Shown: positions 2,971 through 23,908 of the stretch, piece by piece
Numbering within the stretch: position 1 is the first letter of the stretch
Layout: each line of letters opens with the position of its first letter
Source of the DNA: Bacteroidia bacterium
GTDB taxonomy: Bacteria > Bacteroidota > Bacteroidia > Flavobacteriales > Flavobacteriaceae
Assembly (NCBI GenBank): GCA_030427865.1
Contig: JAUICK010000001.1
Span: 186,001 to 250,000 of the forward strand
Direction: 5' to 3'
DNA length: 64,000 nucleotides
Made by a program: the position numbers and the translations under genes
The notes under the pieces: model-generated
Told to the model about the DNA's origin: nothing
What the model saw: only the letters and a program-made list of their open reading frames with translations
Database searches by the model: none

Positions 2971-3000
2971 AAAAACCTTCCATTTTGCAGGAAGGTTTTT
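2971..3000 (-). terminator. Intrinsic terminator, probable ilv attenuator terminator
   Basis: Minus strand AAAAACCTTCC-TGCAAAAT-GGAAGGTTTTT followed by TTATTG; 11-bp perfect stem; lies between the Ile/Val-rich leader ORF and ilvD. Confidence 0.85.
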
Positions 3001-3033
3001 ATTTAAATTTTATATATAAATATTACTTCCACA

Positions 3034-3096
3034 TCACACCATAATAATTACGATGACGATTAAAATAGAAATAATATTTAAAAATTGTTTTTTCAT
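3034..3096 (-). CDS. Putative Ile/Val-rich leader peptide (MKKQFLNIISILIVIVIIMV) of an ilv attenuator
   Basis: ATG AAA AAA CAA TTT TTA AAT ATT ATT TCT ATT TTA ATC GTC ATC GTA ATT ATT ATG GTG TGA on minus strand; 12 of 20 residues are I, V or L; terminator begins ~33 nt after the stop. Confidence 0.75.
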   Translation of the reverse strand: MKKQFLNIISILIVIVIIMV

Positions 3097-7351: not shown

Positions 7352-7415
7352 TCTCGTGGATTTATTAAACACATACAATAATTTTACTGCAACTACTTCT
7401 GTAGCTGGTATTTCT

Positions 7416-7457
7416 ATGCGCACAATTATTCGCACAACTACAACAATTACCCTTTAG
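7416..7457 (+). CDS. Putative thr operon leader peptide MRTIIRTTTTITL
   Basis: ATG CGC ACA ATT ATT CGC ACA ACT ACA ACA ATT ACC CTT TAG; 6 Thr and 3 Ile of 13 residues, 99 nt upstream of the thrA start; in-frame upstream extension to GTG 7356 is also Thr-containing. Confidence 0.75.
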   Translation: MRTIIRTTTTITL

Positions 7458-23795: not shown

Positions 23796-23908
23796 AACAA
23801 AATAGTTAGCAAACAAGTTTAGCCCAGATTGAAACGGCATCCTTTTTTTGAGGAACGAAAAAAAAAGATATAGTGGAAAGCTGGAAATAGCTTCTAAAAA
23901 TGAAAAAA

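Follow-up and report, generated by a model that had tools for sequence, protein, structure and literature searches.

The minus-strand segment 3137-2969 of the window, the whole stretch of 64,000 nucleotides analysed here, is very probably a ribosome-mediated transcription attenuator of ilvDBNCA that senses charged tRNA-Ile (and tRNA-Val). The first ORF of its transcript would be a short leader, and the run of genes that it would control starts with ilvD, followed by ilvB, ilvN, ilvC and an ilvA-like gene (all named by sequence similarity). This downstream operon makes Ile and Val, the amino acids encoded in the leader. Leader-peptide attenuation is textbook knowledge for Proteobacteria, and an earlier note on this DNA had proposed that an Ile/Val version of the same logic operates here, a proposal that conservation and simulation now support. 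From the computed ORF and hairpins, their conservation and their in silico switching, we infer the promoter, the translation of the leader, termination at 2970 and the response to amino acids.

In the proposed mechanism, a promoter just before the Ile/Val-rich leader would start the transcript. When Ile-tRNA and Val-tRNA are plentiful, the ribosome would reach the leader stop codon and cover GGAAG (3030-3026), leaving the 5' arm of the terminator free, and RNA polymerase would then stop at about 2970. When these tRNAs are short, the ribosome would stall within codons 8-18 and open the 1:2 hairpin; UGUGGAAG plus UAUUUA would then pair with the 5' arm of the terminator and the flank just upstream of it, so that RNA polymerase would run on into ilvD. 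If the leader is not translated, the 1:2 hairpin would hide GGAAG and termination would be the default. Such a switch would let the cell make the Ile/Val enzymes only when its ribosomes run short of Ile/Val.

Leader, hairpins and terminator in the window

The 20-codon leader ORF between leuB and ilvD, the 11-bp intrinsic terminator and the GGAAG/CTTCC complementarity, all described in the earlier note, were found again at the same positions (Table 1). The leader ATG follows the end of leuB after 47 nt. Ile and Val account for about half of the leader residues; the control codons are codons 8-18, the last of which is the final Ile codon and also the last clustered Ile/Val codon. A short ORF rich in codons for the amino acids of the pathway encoded downstream is characteristic of leader-peptide attenuators, as is an intrinsic terminator between the leader and the structural gene. 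A mechanical terminator scan recovered the terminator hairpin independently. The U run beyond it extends to about 2969, and 172 nt separate the end of the hairpin from the start of ilvD. On the minus strand, GGAAG faces CUUCC (2994-2990), which is common to the terminator 5' arm and the antiterminator. The strict pattern GGAAG..CTTCC..GGAAG has the ilvD leader as its only match in the whole genome.

Table 1 Parts of the candidate attenuator and neighbouring features in the window
Feature	Position	Strand	Remark
leuB, upstream neighbour	4265-3144	minus	Outside the switch; upstream gene differs between loci
Putative -7 promoter box AATATTTA	3113-3106	minus	From comparison with relatives
Leader ORF MKKQFLNIISILIVIVIIMV*	3096-3034 (ATG 3096, TGA 3034)	minus	20 codons; frame and Ile/Val codons conserved
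Protector/pause hairpin (1:2)	3080-3017	minus	MFE fold and alignment
Antiterminator strand 2, UGUGGAAG	3033-3026	minus	Inside the footprint of a ribosome at the leader stop
Intrinsic terminator hairpin (3:4) AAAAACCTTCC-TGCAAAAT-GGAAGGTTTTT	3000-2971	minus	11 bp
ilvD-proximal conserved element TTGGGTATCATA...TTAAATAATTGGTAAACAG...CTGAAAGTAAA	2949-2873	minus	Profile matches, E 1.3e-9
ilvD, dihydroxyacid dehydratase	2798-1122	minus	Gene name from sequence resemblance

In the MFE fold without a ribosome, the Ile/Val codons, the stop codon and GGAAG all lie within hairpin 1:2. Folding of the leader, a check suggested in the earlier note, gave an energy far below those of 200 dinucleotide shuffles (z = -6.4; 0/200 as good), and a switch appears once a simulated ribosome is added. 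A region so strongly structured could also be a small-molecule riboswitch, a T-box or a protein-binding leader that works the terminator, with translation irrelevant. However, an Rfam scan of the region returned no family at the gathering score, and a permissive scan gave sub-threshold matches only, with no T-box and with Phe_leader as the best cis-regulatory one (27.6 of 55 bits). Moreover, the ORF that forms one strand of the hairpin is conserved, and all module classes have their pairing segment at the stop codon. Such a sensor is therefore hardly credible, and an attenuator worked by translation is preferred.

Simulated switching

The simulation follows the pairing of the terminator 5' arm at the stage when the 3' arm has yet to be transcribed. 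RNA behind the stalled ribosome is removed, and the ribosome footprint is assumed to extend 12 nt beyond the A-site codon. In the window, the simulated pairing of the 5' arm is about 0.58 with the ribosome stalled on codons 4-18 (0.58-0.59 for A-site codons 5-18), 0.04 at codon 19 and 0.03 with the ribosome at the stop codon. The simulation thus predicts the switch outlined in the earlier note, in which a ribosome at the stop masks GGAAG and one stalled on the Ile/Val codons exposes it. Without a ribosome the value is 0.01, which would favour termination in an untranslated leader, as expected of a protector. Pairing without a ribosome averages 0.48 in first modules, so the protector effect is not general in the family.

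The antiterminator is longer than first described. The earlier note counted 5 bp only; the MFE structure with the 5' half of the leader occupied has 5+3+6 bp, with UGU/GCA beside GGAAG/CUUCC and UAUUUA/UAAAUA inside (-7.1 kcal/mol). The GGAAG/CUUCC duplex of the window, taken alone, is no better than shuffled segments (p = 0.27), and the 5-pair helix has no covariation beyond shuffles within A1, the same-genus alignment described below; the antiterminator was therefore judged by comparison across module classes. In all 123 modules simulated, sequestration is higher with a stalled ribosome than with one at the stop (means 0.74 versus 0.14), and the difference exceeds 0.2 in 97-100% of modules versus 30% of shuffled controls. 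Shuffling the post-stop spacer mostly abolishes the switch (stall 0.46 versus stop 0.33). The post-stop segments of these 123 modules pair with their own 5' arms at a mean of -10.1 kcal/mol, versus -5.2 for shuffled segments. A mutually exclusive antiterminator is thus predicted in silico on comparative and thermodynamic grounds, with a core that is short and weak in the window itself.

Conservation within the genus

The alignment A1 comprises 19 same-genus loci with 18 distinct sequences. The leaders share the pattern M-[K/R]-x-Q-x-x-N-I-I-S-[I/V]n and lie about 295 nt upstream of ilvD; their terminators keep the same register. Leader and terminator are present in most same-genus loci having close ilvD homologues; the leader is absent from L024 and L026-L030, where ilvE directly precedes ilvD, and also from L007 and L015. 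The 1:2 and terminator helices are paired in 93% of alignment cells (hairpin 1:2 in 93.5% over the 18 distinct sequences), and their double changes and covariation scores exceed those of nearly all shuffles and slid controls; compensatory changes occur at 4 of the 9 pairs of the terminator helix. In codon columns 8-18 Ile or Val predominates and is maintained through synonymous and Ile/Val exchanges.

The unusual constancy of N-I-I-S, together with a hydrophobic run of about 14 residues after MKKQ, would suit a functional small hydrophobic peptide, membrane or toxin-like, with an RNA structure that serves its own expression. However, the N-I-I-S codons lie in the 5' arm of hairpin 1:2, which is itself conserved and accounts for the constancy of these residues. 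The second-module leaders found in relatives are unrelated in sequence and retain their Ile/Val runs, the element is associated with ilvD/ilvE, and the same architecture occurs with Asn codons before gatA. A functional peptide is thus highly improbable, and the leader is better understood as the sensing part of an attenuator.

Conservation within the family and beyond

The covariance model R1, built from A1, was run on 301 sampled Flavobacteriaceae genomes, 234 of which have ilvD. The N-I-I-S-[I/V]n leader, the terminator and the post-stop segment were found together in 87 of the 301 genomes and in 72 of 238 genera. Among the named carriers are species of Algibacter, Polaribacter (MAG), Meridianimaribacter, Winogradskyella, Gaetbulibacter, Lutibacter, Aquimarina, Dokdonia and Flavobacterium. 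The conservation of an Ile/Val ORF and terminator that the earlier note had looked to in Flavobacteriaceae is thus borne out; as judged from sequence, an arrangement that recurs in 19 same-genus loci and at this frequency in the family is not due to chance. R1 matches few genomes outside the family, with one genome outside Flavobacteriaceae in a class-wide sample. Divergent Ile/Val leaders with complementary terminators were observed before ilvD at L294, L318, L321 and L304, whose hosts are Saprospiraceae, Sediminibacterium (Chitinophagaceae), another Bacteroidetes MAG and Elizabethkingia. The Ile/Val leader strategy seems to reach beyond Flavobacteriaceae.

Among the 95 loci analysed, those with strong R1 matches have ilvD or ilvE as the next gene. 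On the upstream side, 14 loci have leuB and 11 a gltD-like gene, the rest being other or unresolved, at distances from 7 to over 700 nt. Because upstream genes and distances vary in this way, the unit belongs to ilvD/E and not to leuB. Ile and Val make up 44% of the codons in the leader frame, a figure biased upward by the partial selection of the 95 leaders for Ile/Val content, versus about 7% in the two other frames, which contain stops.

These data also bear on whether the hairpin is merely the 3' terminator of the leu operon, with an incidental ORF and an independent ilvD promoter further down. The hairpin lies 144 nt past leuB and can terminate in the leuB direction, the stretch from it to ilvD holds a conserved element as well as promoter-like sequences, and the relatives L007 and L015, which lack the leader ORF, have a good TAnnTTTG near ilvD. 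However, the leader-terminator unit is kept beside gltD-like and other genes at all these distances, it is doubled or tripled in 26 loci, its ORF frame and Ile/Val codons are conserved, and its post-stop segment pairs with the terminator arm. A leu terminator is thus very unlikely, and an attenuator of the ilv genes is the preferred explanation.

Predicted promoter and 5' UTR

A TTTG that stops 4-12 nt short of the start codon precedes 69 of 95 leaders of first modules and 1 of 28 leaders of second or third modules. It matches TAnnTTTG, the -7 box of Bacteroidota (PMC7366714, PMC9723704). Most relatives have nATATTTG at this position; the window box deviates from the consensus by TTTA in place of TTTG, and TTG at 3137-3135 is a possible -33 box. 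If the box is at -7, the 5' UTR would be about 0-7 nt long and the leader ORF leaderless or nearly so. In F. psychrophilum, leaderless mRNAs are reported to make up only 5.5% (PMC9723704).

The earlier note left open whether the attenuator acts inside a leu-ilv transcript or is transcribed from a promoter of its own. The latter is favoured by a -7 box that lies at a fixed short distance ahead of first modules and is missing ahead of second ones, and by the variety of upstream genes; a separate promoter with a very short 5' UTR is thus probable. Bacteroidota do not rely on Shine-Dalgarno initiation, and a conserved, easily scored attenuator makes it possible to test how ribosomes load onto a leader without a binding site quickly enough for attenuation.

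Tandem modules in relatives

Two or three complete leader-terminator modules stand in series at 26 of the 95 loci. The first module usually carries GGAAG(G)/CCTTCC and the second GATACAG/CTGTATC, on or beside the stop codon of the leader; some loci have a GATACAG-type module by itself (L235-L237). The sum of cognate pairing beats that of cross pairing in 26/26 tandem loci, and the pairing codes are usually orthogonal. A second module called in L041 is a false combination of ORF and hairpin and was left out. Three modules were found in L107 and L110 only, where three consecutive Ile-rich leader-terminator modules precede ilvE. Modules 2 and 3 of these loci share an identical GAGAAAGG/CCTTTCTC terminator and therefore look like a recent duplication.

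It is likely that the ilv attenuators of Flavobacteriaceae, with single examples in other Bacteroidota, form a distinct lineage. In this lineage the ORF would be leaderless or nearly so, strand 2 would lie at the stop and duplicate the terminator 3' arm, and modules could be stacked two to three deep with orthogonal codes (GGAAGG, GATACAG, occasionally GAGAAAGG) so that a single operon would stand behind several independent Ile/Val checkpoints in succession. The window itself has the single-module form, with one leader-terminator module before ilvD. Since nature provides versions of the switch with one, two and three modules, the effect of stacking on gain and leakiness could readily be studied. 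The tandem arrays are the newest aspect; the principle of attenuation is already known.

Comparison with known attenuators

The enterobacterial operons ilvGMEDA, ilvBN and leuABCD (E. coli, Salmonella) carry leader-peptide attenuators. As in these, a leader coding for branched-chain amino acids is followed by a protector (1:2), an antiterminator (2:3), a terminator (3:4) and branched-chain amino acid genes. However, no kinship at the Rfam level was detected with the enterobacterial elements; here a -7 box of the Bacteroidota type stands only a few nt from the leader, Leu codons are scarce, and strand 2 abuts the stop codon and largely copies the terminator 3' arm. The trpL leader of Sinorhizobium meliloti is reportedly a leaderless attenuator ORF; it is alike in lying at or near the transcript 5' end and unrelated in sequence, amino acid and phylum.

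In S. aureus, a short ORF with branched-chain amino acid codons and a terminator also lie upstream of ilvD, and mutations in either relieve repression (PMC5794164). In contrast to the leader here, the S. aureus peptide has 26 residues with Leu and Ile and a ribosome binding site, CodY is layered on top, and the proposed antiterminator pairs with the poly-U tail (PMC5794164), whereas strand 2 here pairs with the terminator 5' arm. The element in the window has every structural feature of an attenuator that could be tested, and by analogy and simulation it would work like the enterobacterial ilv/leu and S. aureus ilvD attenuators.

According to a 2010 survey, leader-peptide attenuation had been demonstrated only in Proteobacteria and Actinobacteria until the survey added cases of its own from Firmicutes (PMC2965389). 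For F. psychrophilum, leader-peptide attenuation of amino-acid operons is reported in outline; the accessible main text does not name ilv, and the supplement may list ilvD (PMC9723704). A literature search of main texts found nothing specific on ilvD attenuation in Bacteroidetes, and outline reports only for attenuation in Bacteroidota. The only tandem leader-ORF attenuators that it found are those of Salmonella mgtCBR, described as 'a singular example', where two leader ORFs in series act independently before one operon (PMC3641672). The mgtCBR attenuators respond to different signals, ATP and proline (PMC3641672); in the relatives here, two or three complete leader-terminator modules share one amino-acid code, and their pairing sequences are mostly orthogonal.

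The ilvD-proximal element and other leaders nearby

An ungapped element of about 80 bp, TTGRRYRTCATA ... TTTAAAyAaCTGnnnnnCAG ... TGAATTTAACC (model R2, loci L196-L245), is located about 22 nt beyond the last terminator and 66-210 nt upstream of ilvD. This placement holds for all 54 strong R2 matches with a listed ilvD position (at least 54 genomes); 21 of the 54 are in genomes without an R1 match, some of which carry divergent attenuators. The element is partly dyad-symmetric. RNAalifold found no structure in it, and it was therefore treated as DNA or unstructured. It is probably not part of the attenuator and is perhaps the operator of an ilvD-proximal promoter. A short ORF through it (M-x-x-F..L-N-I-I) was rejected because the frame is not kept (L004 versus L006).

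An Asn-rich leader, MTNNNNNRNFNNPNF*, was found in the same genome at L067:2174-2221 (G000 contig C20). It is followed by GGAAGG and a CCTTCC..GGAAGG terminator, the same core as in the ilvD element, and then by a small ORF, gatA and gatB; this leader is kept in 12 of 14 same-genus loci. From its sequence, it is apparently an attenuator of the amidotransferase genes that senses Asn-tRNA.

Within the window, a Thr/Ile-rich leader with a GTG start, MDLLNTYNNFTATTSVAGISMRTIIRTTTTITL*, lies at 7356-7457 (plus strand) upstream of thrA (aspartokinase/homoserine dehydrogenase). A TATTTTTG box stands 4 nt before the GTG, and the leader is predicted to be leaderless. No obvious U-tailed terminator was seen at this leader, and its mechanism may therefore differ. 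A similar leader was found in 30/30 relatives examined, with a nearly constant end (...TL-stop-GGG). A Flavo-1 RNA (RF01705) is located at 23817-23891 on the plus strand of the window.
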